Below, piece by piece: positions 4,033 to 24,604 of a stretch of DNA of 47,724 nucleotides (the first letter of the stretch is position 1; every line of letters begins with the position of its first letter). Origin of the DNA: a virus. The position numbers and the translations under genes are program-made. Where the stretch lies: positions 1 to 47,724 of IMG/VR virus record IMGVR_UViG_3300031974_005641; one strand, written 5' to 3'. The notes beneath the pieces are model-generated. The model did no database searches. It was given only the letters and a program-made list of their open reading frames with translations, and was not told the DNA's origin.

Positions 4033-4061
4033 TCGCTCGTCCTCAAAGCTCAGGGTTATCC
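3931..4061 (-). repeat. candidate attC-like site 2 (131 bp)
   Basis: Minus strand: R'' GGATAAC (4061-4055), with the stop of the PP-loop gene, and R' GTTAGAA (3937-3931). TTGAGGAC pairs with GTTCCTGCAA with two bulges, but the rest of the arm is weakly paired. It is placed mainly because its two cores match those of the neighbouring units. Confidence 0.4.
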
Positions 4062-4784
4062 GTCCATGCACTCGCATGCCACGTCCGGTGTAAACAGATC
4101 GCCCTGCGCGTCATCAAATTCTAAAAAATCTTTCCAAGCCCATGATCGCGCCAATCCTTTCGCGTGTGTCAACTCTGCGTTTTCCTCCATGTGGATCGCT
4201 CGCGCGATCAGGTCTGGGTGATCTTCCTTGAGCTGCTTAATCTCATGCGGCTTTGTAGCTGGGCAGAAAAAGCAGGCGCTCTTTCCGGGCTGCGGCAAAC
4301 CTGCACGCGCTATCGCCTCAATACATTCCTGCCGCCCCCAGTTCCATTCAACCAGCGGGTATCGCGTGCCCTCGTATTTCTTCCGGTGCGCTTCGCCAGC
4401 ATCAATGCCAACCCAAAACCAAGGGGCGATGTGGCCTTGCTTCTTTAGCCACCGTTTTTGCGGCCTTATCTTGTATCGCTCTGAACAGCTCTTAAAACCA
4501 TAGGCAAGACCCGGCAATGCATTGCGGTTTAAGCAATCCTGCTCCAGCGTTATATGCTCGCGCACGGTCACGATCCGAGGAAAGCCAATTGATTCACACC
4601 AGTCGCTTACCGTATCTCTATGCGCGTAGGTTTCCGGTCTTTCCCCCCCTGTATCGGCAAATACAATAATGTCTGGCCTCTCGCCTCGCTCATACAGGCC
4701 CACCAACATCGCCGTGCTATTAGTCCCAGCTCCGTAGCTGACCACGGATGGACGGATAACAACTGTGTCAACTGCGACATTCAT
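4056..4784 (-). CDS. PAPS reductase-family PP-loop protein
   Basis: A 242-residue adenine nucleotide alpha-hydrolase-fold protein. The PP-loop SYGAGTNSTAML is near residues 16-27, followed by VFADTGGERPETY, and there are cysteines at CSERYK and CFFCPA. Phage relatives are annotated as PAPS reductase family; their substrates are mostly unknown and include nucleic acid thiolation candidates. The ATG at 4784 has GGAG nine bases upstream, but both lie inside attC-like site 1; a GTG at VVSYG just after the core is the alternative. Not linked to other dnd-type genes here. Confidence 0.8.
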   Translation of the reverse strand: MNVAVDTVVIRPSVVSYGAGTNSTAMLVGLYERGERPDIIVFADTGGERPETYAHRDTVSDWCESIGFPRIVTVREHITLEQDCLNRNALPGLAYGFKSCSERYKIRPQKRWLKKQGHIAPWFWVGIDAGEAHRKKYEGTRYPLVEWNWGRQECIEAIARAGLPQPGKSACFFCPATKPHEIKQLKEDHPDLIARAIHMEENAELTHAKGLARSWAWKDFLEFDDAQGDLFTPDVACECMDG

Positions 4785-4825
4785 TCCGCTTCGCTCCATT
4801 CATGCGCGTTACACATGGGTTATGT
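4754..4825 (-). repeat. attC-like site 1
   Basis: Minus strand: R'' ACATAAC (4825-4819), R' GTTATCC (4760-4754), 72 bp. The arm TGTGTAACGCGCAT pairs over all 14 bases with ATGTCGCAGTTGACACA, leaving three single bulged bases on the 3' arm. This is the cleanest attC-like fold of the set. Confidence 0.83.
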
Positions 4826-19993: not shown

Positions 19994-20199
19994 TGGCCCC
20001 GGATAAAGTTTCTACAGCAGCAAGCTATACCGCATCAGTAGTCACCACGGTCGCAGGGTTGACGATAAATGAGTGGGTGGCTATTGGTGGCCTGATGATT
20101 GGTCTATGTACGTTTTTGACAAATGTGTGGTATCGGCGCCAGCAGCTAAAAATCCAGCGCGAGGCCGCAAAAAATGGCCAAAGGCTGGATTTGGGTTAG
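19993..20199 (+). CDS. holin-like protein
   Basis: A 68-residue protein with one strong transmembrane helix (WVAIGGLMIGLCTFLTNVWYRRQQL) and a basic C-terminal tail, like the small holins of P2/HP1-like phages (LTINEWVAIGGL). It should permeabilise the inner membrane for the endolysin. It converges with the Aca2-like gene with a 4-base overlap. Confidence 0.8.
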   Translation: MAPDKVSTAASYTASVVTTVAGLTINEWVAIGGLMIGLCTFLTNVWYRRQQLKIQREAAKNGQRLDLG

Positions 20200-20582
20200 C
20201 TAAGCTCAACATTGCCGCCTTCGCTGAAAACAAACGCGACAGCGGCCTGATGAATGCGCCAGCATACTTGGTTTTTACCGGGGTAATCAGCGGCGTATTG
20301 CTCAAACGTGTGATAGTAATTTAGCGTTAATGTCGCGTTTTCGTCTTCTTGCTCCATGTTGTATTGCTTCTCTGTTAGCTCGCCGACAAGCTCATTGCGC
20401 ATACCGATCAACAAATAAATTTCTGAATCAACGTCTGGCGGCACTTTGGAGCGTCCAGATTCCCAGTATTGCCAAGTACGTGGTGAGACCTTGCCGATTA
20501 ATTCGGCAGCCTCGCTTACATCGAGCATAAGCAACTTGCGGCAGGCTTGTAGCTCAGAATTATTTAGTGTGTTCCAGCTCAT
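20196..20582 (-). CDS. Aca2-like HTH regulator (anti-CRISPR-associated)
   Basis: A 128-residue protein with NNSELQACRKLLMLDVSEAAELIGKVSPRTWQYWESGRSKVPPDVDSEIYLLI, which agrees closely with my memory of Aca2, the DUF1870-type autorepressor of acr operons. The C-terminal NQVCWRIHQAAVAFVFSEG also fits. AAGGA before ATG 20582 sets the start, and the ATG overlaps the stop of the gene before. It is the last gene of a three-gene minus-strand unit placed inside the plus-strand late region. Confidence 0.85.
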   Translation of the reverse strand: MSWNTLNNSELQACRKLLMLDVSEAAELIGKVSPRTWQYWESGRSKVPPDVDSEIYLLIGMRNELVGELTEKQYNMEQEDENATLTLNYYHTFEQYAADYPGKNQVCWRIHQAAVAFVFSEGGNVELS

Positions 20583-21127
20583 AATGAATCCTTTTTTTGC
20601 AATATTGATTTTGCTCCAATCAGGATGCATCTAAACATCCATGGATTATTTAACGCGAGCGCCTTTAATTTGTCTTCTTTAGTGTTTGTTAGTGTTACAA
20701 GATCTTCAATTTTTAAGCCTGCCTTCTTCAGCGACAGGAGACCTCCAATAAATTCCTCTTTGTCTTGAATGTTTAGCAAGTCAAGCACTATTTCTACCGC
20801 TTTAATTTTCCCGTTAGCTTTAATGCTGATGTCATTAAACCGATGCATGTCATGATCTATCTGTGAAACTCCGAGGGCATCGTAAGCAAAGAATAGACGT
20901 TTTTCTGTTTGATTTATTGACATCCTTGCATGCTGCAGCCTCGCCAGCAGGTCTTTGATTTTAATATCATAATCTTTATTGGTATTGTTTTGTTTTAGTG
21001 AAATCAAACTCTCTTCTATTTCTTTGATTTCACTTTTGCATAGCAAAAAGCTGTCGTCGCAACCTCGCTGATTCGCGCAGACTGATGACGCCTTGTTAAT
21101 ACCTTTTTCAAAAATAGAAAAATCCAT
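20579..21127 (-). CDS. unknown protein, candidate anti-CRISPR or counter-defence
   Basis: A 182-residue, highly helical, lysine-rich protein (coiled-coil like at 28-80, then VEIVLDLLNIQDKEEFIGGLLSLKKAGLKIEDLVTLTNTKEDKL). No family recognised. AT-rich DNA unlike the flanking structural genes suggests separate acquisition. It overlaps aca2 by 4 bases, so it is co-translated with it. Guilt by association is the only evidence for an anti-CRISPR role. Confidence 0.7.
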   Translation of the reverse strand: MDFSIFEKGINKASSVCANQRGCDDSFLLCKSEIKEIEESLISLKQNNTNKDYDIKIKDLLARLQHARMSINQTEKRLFFAYDALGVSQIDHDMHRFNDISIKANGKIKAVEIVLDLLNIQDKEEFIGGLLSLKKAGLKIEDLVTLTNTKEDKLKALALNNPWMFRCILIGAKSILQKKDSL

Positions 21128-21792: not shown

Positions 21793-22356
21793 ATGAAAAT
21801 AGACAATTTCCCGCCCTATAAAAAGGCGAATGTTGACGATCTCATACCGTATGCGAACAACAGTCGGACGCATAATGAGGACCAGGTGGCTCAGATCGCC
21901 GCAAGCATCAAGGAATACGGTTTTACAAACCCCGTTCTGGTTGACGGTTCGAAAGGTGTTATAGCGGGGCATGGTAGGTTGTTGGCCGCAAAAAAGCTCG
22001 GGCTAAAACAGGTTCCGGTCATCGAACTTGGGCATCTAAGTGAGACGCAAAAGAAAGCATATATTATCGCTGATAACAAACTGGCATTAAATGCTGACTG
22101 GAACTATGACGCACTGAAGATTGAGATAGAGGGCTTGGCTGAGGTTGATTTTGATTTAGGTCTTACTGGGTTCTCTGGTGATGAGCTGGGTGATTTATTT
22201 CCCGAAGGAAAAGCTGACGGAGGTGCTGATATCGGGGTTGCCATGGAGGATGGAACGGAATTTTTAGTGGTTGTTGATTGCGTTAGCGAGATGGAGCAGT
22301 CAAAACTATATGATGATTTATGCGCTAAAGGCTACTCTGTGAAGCTGGTGAGCTAA
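21793..22356 (+). CDS. ParB/Srx-domain protein
   Basis: A 187-residue protein. Residues 12-95 are a ParB N-terminal-like domain (LIPYANNSRTHNEDQVAQIAASIKEYGFTNPVLVD, then GVIAGHGRLLAAKKLGLKQVPVI). The C-terminal part (FLVVVDCVSEMEQSKLYDDLCAKGYSVKLVS) is a small domain often found in phage ParB proteins. Such proteins can be NTPases or nucleases. It overlaps the ABC/GNAT gene (TAATG), so both are probably one system. Confidence 0.85.
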   Translation: MKIDNFPPYKKANVDDLIPYANNSRTHNEDQVAQIAASIKEYGFTNPVLVDGSKGVIAGHGRLLAAKKLGLKQVPVIELGHLSETQKKAYIIADNKLALNADWNYDALKIEIEGLAEVDFDLGLTGFSGDELGDLFPEGKADGGADIGVAMEDGTEFLVVVDCVSEMEQSKLYDDLCAKGYSVKLVS

Positions 22357-23456
22357 TGAAAGACTATGAAGTTCTACTTAAAAGCCCGGTTTCGACTTCT
22401 TTCCGGTGTCAAAAAGCAGCAGATAGTTTAGATATAAACACCTCTGAGAAATCAGTTCACCATCTCAAAGTCAGTGCGGATATAAACGCAGACTACAGTA
22501 TCGGATTAATTATTGGTGCGTCTGGATCAGGAAAAACCACACTTGCTAAGCAGATTTTTGGAGAAAAGGTCTTCGAATCTGATTTAGATCAGTCGCTACC
22601 AATTATTGAGCAATTCCCTAGCAATCTTGAGTACGATGATTGCGCGAAGTTATTGTCTGGTGTTGGCCTTACAAGCGTTCCGTGTTGGATCAGGCCGGTC
22701 TATACACTCTCCAACGGTCAAAAAGCGCGGGCAGAGATTGCTTTGAATCTGGCAAAAAATGCTGAGTTGTCTGTGGTTGATGAATGGACTTCGGTTGTAG
22801 ACCGCACTGTCGCCAAAGTGATGAGTTATTGTGTGTCAAAACATATTCGCGCTAGCGGCAAGAAAATTGTTCTGCTGTCCTGCCATTATGACGTATTGGA
22901 GTGGCTTGACCCTGATTGGGTTATTGATTGCAATAAGCAATCTTATACAGATCGGAGGTCACTTAGGCGAGGCCAAAGGAAAGAGAAAATCACTTTCACA
23001 GTCCGTCGCGTCGGGCGCGATACATGGCAAAGATTTAGCAAGTATCATTATCTAAGCAAAAACCTTCCAGGCGGCCATATTGAATGTTTTGGCCTGTTTT
23101 ATGGCGACGAGCAGGTAGGGTTTACGTGCTTCGCTAATTACGTTCCTTGGCGTGACAAAAACAAATCTAAGCCGATGCATTCAAACCGCGTGGTGATTCA
23201 TCCAGACTACGCAGGATTCGGCTTGGGGATTCGATTTGTAAATGAGTGCAGTGCCATCATGGAGAATGAAGGTTTTGCGGTATACGCGAAACTAAGCGCG
23301 ACACCGCTAGTTAAAGCACGATTAAAGCAGCCTGAGAGATGGAGGCTGATAAAGGTAGGACGCGACATGAAGGTTAGAAAAACCGGAAACATGTCGCGGA
23401 GTTCGGGGTTCAGATCAAAAGTTAAGACGTACACTTTCCGCTATATAGCTGCTTAG
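22356..23456 (+). CDS. ABC-ATPase / GNAT acetyltransferase fusion
   Basis: A 366-residue fusion. Residues 45-195 form an ABC ATPase with Walker A GASGSGKT (54-61), signature LSNGQKARAE (118-127), Walker B SVVDEW (139-144) and H-loop His177; no membrane part is present. Residues 212-350 form a GNAT domain (GLFYGDEQVGFTCFANYV, HPDYAGFGLGIRFV). GNAT-fold proteins such as Mom of phage Mu modify DNA bases, and the ParB neighbour suggests a DNA substrate; this is inference. AT-rich relative to flanking genes. Confidence 0.85.
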   Translation: MKDYEVLLKSPVSTSFRCQKAADSLDINTSEKSVHHLKVSADINADYSIGLIIGASGSGKTTLAKQIFGEKVFESDLDQSLPIIEQFPSNLEYDDCAKLLSGVGLTSVPCWIRPVYTLSNGQKARAEIALNLAKNAELSVVDEWTSVVDRTVAKVMSYCVSKHIRASGKKIVLLSCHYDVLEWLDPDWVIDCNKQSYTDRRSLRRGQRKEKITFTVRRVGRDTWQRFSKYHYLSKNLPGGHIECFGLFYGDEQVGFTCFANYVPWRDKNKSKPMHSNRVVIHPDYAGFGLGIRFVNECSAIMENEGFAVYAKLSATPLVKARLKQPERWRLIKVGRDMKVRKTGNMSRSSGFRSKVKTYTFRYIAA

Positions 23457-23795
23457 TTCTTCAAGTACATCTGCCGGCGCTTTAAAAAGCATTGTTCGGC
23501 CTTTTATTGAAATATTCTTGACAGGGATTACCCTCCCGATAACCCAAGCATAATGTCTTTCTCTCCAATGCGTCATCGCTTTTTCGGATAAGCCAGGCGT
23601 AAAAGGTACGACGTCAAGAAGCTCGATAATGCATATAGTTTGCCCTAGAGGGTGATCGCAAGGCCGCGCCGGAACTTTTGATGAACAGATTAATAGGGGG
23701 CCACGATGCTTTGTGGCCCAGCTTCTTATTTCGCAAGTCTTCACGCCTTGCAGAATATGCTCGGCGTGAGGTTGCTTTATCGAAAGCGCCTTCAT
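23415..23795 (-). CDS. ASCH-domain protein (second copy)
   Basis: A 126-residue ASCH protein with MKALSIKQPHAEHILQGVKTCEIRSWATKHRGPLLICSS and a later VIGRVIPVK strand. ASCH domains bind nucleic acids or modified nucleosides. It converges with the ABC/GNAT gene, overlapping it by 42 bases, and its ATG overlaps the DUF932 stop. Confidence 0.87.
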   Translation of the reverse strand: MKALSIKQPHAEHILQGVKTCEIRSWATKHRGPLLICSSKVPARPCDHPLGQTICIIELLDVVPFTPGLSEKAMTHWRERHYAWVIGRVIPVKNISIKGRTMLFKAPADVLEELSSYIAESVRLNF

Positions 23796-24604
23796 GCGGC
23801 GCGAAGCTCATTGTAGAAGTTGTTAGCAGTTTCCCAGATCGCCTTATTGGCCAACACGTTTTGGCGGGGCGATGTAATACCGCGAGTTCGGCGTGTTTTG
23901 TTATTTAATGAAGTAGTTTCAAGCCCTCCGCGAATCAATCCTTCTTGGATTGTATTGAGCGTGTTCCACATTGATGGGCGACTGTCTTCGCGGCGATTGG
24001 GCGTAATAACTTCGTCAAGGTCGAACATTTTTGCTCGGTCATCGCCGTGAACTGCCTTCAAAGTTCTGGAAGCCAACTCTATTCGCTTTGGCTTATTAAG
24101 AAGTAGACCATTGAATTTTGCCATTTGGCTTTCAATCATTGGCACAGATTCGATGACTTCATAGGTGCCTTCGATTATATCGTCCAGTACGTTGGGTGTA
24201 TGGCGGTATTTTTTTGTTTCAAACATGGAGTCAGCGATAACCATCCCGTTGCTACAAACAAGCCGAAACAGCCCGGCGCTCAATGCAAAGCCGCTAGCTT
24301 TATTGTGTGAATTCATTAGCACGATTTCAGGAAGTGAATCGCCAACCATGATCGGCTTTTGGTCGACGTGGCGCAGACGTACATAGTGACGGTTTGTTGC
24401 ATCGCGCTCTTCAGTTTTTCCGCGTGATTGCATTGCTTCGGTTGGGAACCAACCTTCTTTAGCGAGGCTTGTTATTACGTCCTTTGTACTGACAAAGCCG
24501 TATTTTTCTGTCGTTTTGCTGTGAGGTAAGTCTGCAAAAATAGCAGGTGCGCGGTTGTGCATTTGCTGGGCATTCATAGCCCATGAAGGTAGTTGAATTG
24601 ACAT
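23792..24604 (-). CDS. DUF932 phage/plasmid-like protein
   Basis: A 270-residue DUF932-type protein: HYVRLRHVDQKPIMVGDSLPEIVLMNSHNKASGFALSAGLFRLVCSNGMVIADSMFETKKYRHT is the typical core. Function unknown; such genes are common on plasmids and phages. AAGGAG before ATG 24604. Coupled to the ASCH gene. Confidence 0.9.
   Translation of the reverse strand: MSIQLPSWAMNAQQMHNRAPAIFADLPHSKTTEKYGFVSTKDVITSLAKEGWFPTEAMQSRGKTEERDATNRHYVRLRHVDQKPIMVGDSLPEIVLMNSHNKASGFALSAGLFRLVCSNGMVIADSMFETKKYRHTPNVLDDIIEGTYEVIESVPMIESQMAKFNGLLLNKPKRIELASRTLKAVHGDDRAKMFDLDEVITPNRREDSRPSMWNTLNTIQEGLIRGGLETTSLNNKTRRTRGITSPRQNVLANKAIWETANNFYNELRAA

Follow-up and report, generated by a model that had tools for sequence, protein, structure and literature searches.

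The window analyzed here is the entire 47.7-kb virus record IMGVR_UViG_3300031974_005641 (47,724 nucleotides), which encodes an integrase, RecE and RecT and is a temperate phage. Two plus-strand open reading frames, 21793-22356 (187 amino acids) and 22356-23456 (366 amino acids), share a single base within a TAATG and are probably translationally coupled. The features of this cassette are as follows.

21793..22356, plus strand: ParB-like gene, 187 amino acids (PF02195; phrog_620; phrog_498)
21820-22218, plus strand: ParB_N domain with extension, about residues 10-142 (PF02195 match)
22243..22353, plus strand: C-terminal tail module of the ParB-like protein, residues 151-187 (136 of 145 and 73 of 73 ABC-GNAT loci)
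22354..22358, plus strand: TAATG, ParB-like stop over ABC-GNAT start (reading of the sequence and open reading frames)
22356..23456, plus strand: ABC ATPase-GNAT fusion gene, 366 amino acids (PF00005, 1.9e-10; phrog_11143, 2.4e-83; AlphaFold2 pLDDT 90.4)
22356..22967, plus strand: ABC nucleotide-binding domain (NBD), residues 1-204 (VIA Z about 14 to ABC NBDs)
22515..22538, plus strand: Walker A GASGSGKT, residues 54-61 (184 of 184 full-length relatives)
22707..22721, plus strand: ABC signature LSNGQ, residues 118-122 (LSxG[QE] in 183 of 184 relatives)
22770..22793, plus strand: Walker B and catalytic Glu, D142-E143 (invariant in 49 sequences; DE[WF]TS in 182 of 184)
22884..22886, plus strand: H-loop His177 (invariant in 49 sequences)
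22971..23453, plus strand: GNAT acyltransferase domain, about residues 206-366 (AlphaFold2 model of the domain alone, pLDDT 89.9; PDB neighbors)
23046..23054, plus strand: HYL motif, residues 231-233 (alignments; HYL in 147 of 184 relatives)
23202..23228, plus strand: acyl-CoA pyrophosphate-binding motif PDYAGFGLG, residues 283-291 (P[DE][YFW]xGxGxG in 181 of 184 relatives)

The first-pass annotation had described a ParB-like gene that overlaps a gene encoding an ABC ATPase-GNAT fusion, and the open reading frames, the profile matches and the AlphaFold2 model agree that this arrangement is real. Its statement that the ABC ATPase has no transport partner was likewise borne out: a scan of nine proteins from 20.2-26.5 kb revealed no membrane permease. 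Terminase genes begin downstream of the cassette at 24.7 kb, and the interval between ABC-GNAT and these genes is occupied on the minus strand by an ASCH-domain gene and a DUF932 gene (23415-24604). Elsewhere on the minus strand, the window encodes an Aca2/YdiL-like HTH protein (20196-20630; PF08965, 9.9e-27), a regulator type known from anti-CRISPR loci, and a PAPS reductase-like protein (4056-4799; phrog_424, 3.6e-36), which is common phage cargo. A second Mom-like match was not found in the window. PADLOC matched the cassette only partially, with mad3 aligning to the ABC part and a second match to a methyltransferase model that contains ParB.

The match of the 366-residue protein to phrog_11143, a family of "unknown function", spans its full length, and GNAT models fell just under the cut-off (PF00583, 0.002). 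AlphaFold2, supplied with 49 relatives, returned one confident two-domain model, to which the pLDDT in the list refers as a mean; in it the GNAT domain spans residues 211-366, had a VIA Z of about 14 to solved GNATs and adopted the same fold when modeled alone. The full NBD motif set of ABC transporters (Walker A and B, LSxGQ and the H-loop) is present in the protein; a fused or adjacent transmembrane permease is missing among the scanned neighbors, and the fused domain is the GNAT. Since 181 to 184 of the 184 full-length relatives over which motifs were counted keep the ATPase and acyl-CoA motifs, the ABC and GNAT enzymes should both be active. In the Lactococcus phage P335 and the Oenococcus phage Vinitor-27, ABC and GNAT are encoded by separate genes coupled through an ATGA overlap, so the two are kept together even when unfused. 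A programmed frameshift in Firmicutes phages, considered on account of two tblastn frames, was rejected because these are the separate, ATGA-overlapping genes of P335 and Vinitor-27.

We compared the GNAT domain with Mom, the DNA-modifying enzyme of phage Mu, to which the first-pass annotation had likened it. The best solved structural neighbors, among the best 50 listed, were RimI, SpeG and NatC, whose substrates are proteins or polyamines; Mom (8bv8) was not among these 50, which does not exclude similarity to it. The Mom-like family phrog_1384 matched ABC-GNAT over residues 209-262 only, with an E-value of 0.024 (1.8e-4 over a similar stretch in a one-record search), so the ABC-GNAT sequence alone does not indicate Mom. 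In profile comparison the GNAT domain had an HH score of 57.4 to RimI versus 35.7 to Mom, and Mom versus RimI gave 22.7; the match to Mom had an HH probability of 64.5% and exceeded the maximum of 22.5 reached by shuffled controls (n=40). The HYL motif at residues 231-233 is positioned approximately as His48-Tyr49 of Mom, with 24 residues from the His to the Gly of the next strand versus 23 in Mom. The key residues of the Mom motifs ELxR, SxAD and GxYxAxN are invariant in 12 Mom sequences, yet ELNR (ELxR), SxAD and GxYxAxN are not present in the ABC-GNAT alignment, and conversely the acyl-CoA motif PDYxGxGxG is missing from the Mom alignment. Membership of the Mom family was therefore rejected: the Mom profile scores above shuffled controls yet below RimI, and the Mom motifs are missing. 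On sequence grounds the GNAT domain is a canonical acyltransferase in a Mom-like setting, outside the Mom family and closer to RimI. DruA (DUF4338) was considered as a related HY-motif GNAT, and the HYLG motif was not found in either of two sequences. The domain comes close to the type of pocket, typical of small-molecule or protein acetylation, that the earlier annotation had named as evidence against DNA marking; fold and pocket alone do not settle the substrate.

The ParB-like protein matched ParB_N (PF02195) with 28.5 bits, above the Pfam gathering score of 26.3, and was also recognized by phrog_620 (1.1e-51) and by phrog_498, a family of ParB fused to DNA methyltransferase (6.4e-50). The central HTH that follows ParB_N in partition ParBs is missing, and the 187-residue protein had no other Pfam match. 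On the same strand and within 900 nt upstream of ABC-GNAT, a ParB-like gene was present at 52 of the 57 viral loci and at 69 of the 76 loci from genomes, compared with 2 of 74 control terminase loci; the linkage between ParB and ABC-GNAT is not due to chance. To view this ParB family independently, 80 relatives of the window protein were collected without ABC-GNAT as bait. Fusion to an N6/N4 DNA methyltransferase was seen in 41 of the 80, and most of the non-fused relatives overlap the next gene. The coupled partners were C5 cytosine methyltransferase (6), TAGT, a TET-associated glycosyltransferase (8), N6_N4_Mtase (2), ABC-GNAT (2), and Mom, a TGT/DpdA-like protein and a methyltransferase C-terminal protein (1 each). 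Other neighbors were a P-loop kinase-like gene (7), an FkbM-type methyltransferase (2), an unknown gene (3) and a terminase small-subunit gene (2), and the remaining relatives lay at a contig edge or were unclassified. As a control, none of 10 scanned genes upstream of the same ParBs was a recognized DNA-modifying enzyme. With a Mom-type bait from Microbacterium phage Dropshot, ParB was found directly upstream in all 69 usable loci, and an ABC domain in none. Given these recognized DNA-modifying partners, and its presence at all 69 usable Mom-type loci, this ParB family appears to assist DNA modification in general. At L317:4540-5058 and in relatives, a ParB of this family overlaps a P-loop kinase-like gene with weak thymidylate/guanylate kinase matches.

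ParBs that partner ABC-GNAT end in a tail of about 35 residues, which in the window terminates FLVVVDCVSEMEQSKLYDDLCAKGYSVKLVS. Tail residues E166 and G180 are 95% conserved, which equals the most conserved sites in the body of ParB, and the tail fold appears from its sequence to be beta-alpha-beta. The tail was found in 136 of 145 ABC-GNAT loci with enough upstream DNA, comprising all 128 loci with a ParB and 8 without a recognized ParB nearby. Because the tail profile was trained on this 145-locus set, a fairer test is provided by the later-fetched Porphyromonas-phage-like subfamily: all 73 usable loci carried the tail, and in 55 of these ParB was not detectable. Where ParB is lacking, the tail stands as a separate protein of about 41-47 amino acids (for example, MGKYTYKPQFGVIVICTDEKEQKAVYDRLHSEGLTLKVVNV), and this free microprotein is found among Mu-like phages and also in a small number of large-contig phages. 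The tail profile gave no matches in Mom-type loci and none in terminase loci, and in the 80-ParB set it matched only the two proteins with an ABC-GNAT partner. A different ending, a CxxC/H knuckle (e.g., CPHCGKEFDAR), is carried by 76 of 77 ParBs adjoining Mom and by all 6 adjoining C5 methyltransferase; no cysteine cluster occurs in the ABC-GNAT tail or microprotein. In a Nonomuraea locus (L099), a long opposite-strand open reading frame lies between ParB-tail and ABC-GNAT, and the tail is retained. Tail and ParB were both undetected in some relatives, namely Thomasclavelia TR-TP2, Enterococcus 9184 and pT24. As judged from these sequences, ParB looks like a shared adaptor carrying partner-specific tails. 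No description of the tails was found in the literature (open-licence papers), and partner-specific ParB tails are apparently undescribed so far. Kinase-partner ParBs and ParBs with unknown partners (L287 and L336) seemingly have one further C-terminal tail type in common.

One free tail module had already received another label. A study of these Porphyromonas phages relied on two prediction tools to name its acr candidates (PMC10367356), and a 42-residue "acr candidate" of phage011a (L185:4867-4995) is a free ABC-GNAT tail module, which makes its anti-CRISPR label doubtful.

Relatives of ABC-GNAT were found in 66 phage records, 65 IMG/VR loci (first scan), 356 bacterial-genome stretches and 265 loci of the second, Porphyromonas-phage-like subfamily. 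The cassette is widespread; it lies just before terminase genes in the window and in Pasteurella Pmp13, Leptospira LE4, Streptococcus, P335, Javan141 and Gordonia NHagos, and among replication genes in Enterococcus 9184, TR-TP2 and P12024S. A fixed association with the closest terminases was rejected: 41 of 43 usable loci had no ParB, Mom or ABC-GNAT upstream, so the cassette is not tied to the related terminase. A variant cassette lies upstream of terminase in Pseudomonas phage ZY21 (L359:199-3671) and Rhizobium phage V1VFA-S (L360); it has two ParB-like genes, and its ABC domain is encoded alone, apart from a protein of about 300 residues that has a very weak GNAT match. In Tenacibaculum phage pT24 an in-frame TGA breaks the GNAT part of the ABC-GNAT gene (L066:5754-5756), which may reflect decay, sequencing error or recoding.

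The Porphyromonas phages 011a and 014a are both Mu-like, with MuA-like transposase, MuB-like and Gam-like proteins, and their right arms match. The right-end slot contains a Mom-family gene in 014a (phrog_1384, 7.6e-41), and in 011a it contains the 42-residue tail protein, ABC-GNAT and a formyltransferase-domain protein; com-mom of phage Mu occupies the equivalent place at the right end. Of the 73 loci of this Mu-like subfamily, 60 have a Formyl_trans_N (PurN-like) gene after ABC-GNAT, the 011a copy being at L185:6119-6592.

We consider it probable that the two genes of the window form a phage DNA-modification cassette, in which the GNAT domain would acylate a base and the ParB-like protein would serve as adaptor through a tail matching its partner. 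The proposal of the first-pass annotation that the pair marks phage DNA thus stands as the most likely reading, on gene context, and its proposal of a Mom-type GNAT is not supported, given the acyl-CoA motif and the profile scores. Two observations make DNA marking most likely: the ParB family adjoins many DNA-modifying enzymes, including Mom, and ABC-GNAT and Mom share a slot in related Mu-like phages. With acyl-CoA as donor, the GNAT domain would acylate an exocyclic base amine of the DNA of the phage itself. Since other DNA-acting ABC ATPases clamp DNA, a dimer of the ABC domain probably does so here, with ATP gating or repositioning the DNA. The ParB-like protein would be the accessory that takes modifying enzymes to DNA, with a constant body and a short C-terminal tail matched to the partner, beta-alpha-beta-like for ABC-GNAT and a CxxC/H knuckle for Mom or C5 methyltransferase. 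ParB with its tail, or the tail alone, may take ABC-GNAT to DNA or to an active state; the association of tail and enzyme is seen across the loci, and from it we infer contact. In Mu-like phages the tail microprotein alone would suffice, and the formyltransferase-domain protein of that subfamily might, speculatively, alter the mark further. Such a mark would most likely protect the phage DNA against host nucleases.

In a quite unlikely alternative, the GNAT domain acetylates a host protein, such as RNA polymerase, the ribosome or a defense factor, with ABC as a regulatory switch and ParB a mere neighbor. The closest solved folds among the best 50 listed (RimI, NatC and SpeG) and profile scores that favor RimI over Mom are consistent with this, and some phages have GNATs that act on host proteins, an example from the literature being Rac of phiKMV. 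However, the near-fixed linkage to a ParB family whose other recognized partners modify DNA would then be without obvious reason, and exchange with Mom at one locus argues against it as well. The same partners, which modify DNA or bases in DNA, speak against acylation of RNA (tRNA or rRNA), a reading that we regard as barely plausible although RNA-modifying GNAT enzymes exist. A role in packaging, with the cassette marking or positioning DNA for terminase, is suggested by its frequent place before the terminase genes (the window, Pmp13, LE4, P335, Javan141 and NHagos). This is very unlikely, as the cassette is at the right end, far from terminase, in the Mu-like Porphyromonas phages and among replication genes in Enterococcus 9184, TR-TP2 and P12024S, and ParB, Mom and ABC-GNAT are lacking upstream of the terminase in 41 of the 43 related-terminase phages with enough upstream DNA.

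A further alternative bears only on the tail and does not conflict with DNA modification by ABC-GNAT: tail or microprotein would regulate translation of the downstream gene instead of docking the enzyme. Its precedent is Com of Mu, a zinc-finger translational activator whose gene lies just upstream of mom and overlaps it (PMC6483171). The CxxC/H knuckle of Mom-partner ParBs (76 of 77) and the position of the tail, nearly always directly before the enzyme start, would both fit such regulation. The RNA fold at the ParB/ABC junction of the window was, however, not significant (z -0.19), the ABC-GNAT tail has no cysteine cluster, and retention of the tail in the Nonomuraea locus despite the intervening opposite-strand frame fits protein contact better. 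We regard translational regulation by the tail as unlikely.

The fullest form of the DNA-modification reading is tentative: one exchangeable ParB adaptor, whose tail of about 35 residues (also a free microprotein) would choose the enzyme, an ATP-driven ABC-GNAT acyl mark and, in Mu-like phages, a PurN-like formyltransferase that would change this mark. If it is true, several hundred phages infecting Proteobacteria, Firmicutes, Bacteroidetes, Actinobacteria, Planctomycetes and Leptospira have an ATP-dependent DNA acylation system, and a phage "ParB-like partition protein" would often be a "DNA-modification adaptor". The tails would offer a simple predictor of a ParB's enzyme, and at least one "anti-CRISPR candidate" is seemingly misnamed. 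A new base modification would bear on restriction, CRISPR evasion and sequencing chemistry. Restriction or nucleoside results for a cassette-bearing phage were not found in the literature, and the LE3/LE4 paper does not mention restriction.

The prediction of DNA acylation by ABC-GNAT is not new and precedes this analysis. In the available part of their article, Iyer et al. (2021; PMC7824862) predict DNA-base acyl modification for a GNAT coupled with an ABC ATPase, naming phage pT24 and citing Iyer et al. (2013; NAR 41:7635) for the ABC-GNAT prediction; the same part does not mention the ParB partner, the tails, the microprotein or the exchange between ABC-GNAT and Mom among Mu-like phages. 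This ABC ATPase-GNAT system, to which phrog_11143 corresponds, resembles the window in having phage ABC and GNAT fused or coupled. The pT24 locus encodes a relative of the window gene (94% of the query, 2e-43), which is presumably the protein cited by these authors, under a different accession. Mom of phage Mu (methylcarbamoylase; PDB 8bv8; phrog_1384) shares with the window protein the GNAT superfamily, according to the literature, and the position of the HY motif, and the Mom family shares the ParB-like partner and the genomic slot in Mu-like phages; Mom differs in having neither an ABC domain nor PDYxGxGxG, and in its own motifs. The likeness to Com of phage Mu lies in a small protein encoded just upstream of, and overlapping, a DNA-modification gene, but Com is a zinc-finger RNA binder and the microprotein lacks a cysteine cluster. 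The phage ParB-DNA methyltransferase fusions of phrog_498 belong to the same ParB family and have a DNA-modifying partner, but their enzyme is a SAM-dependent methyltransferase and they have no beta-alpha-beta-like tail. Finally, DpdB, the ParB-like ATPase of the Dpd 7-deazaguanine systems, is a helper of a base-modifying enzyme (PMC12839542), a parallel with the window ParB that we draw from its description and that is joined by the one relative coupled to a TGT/DpdA-like gene.
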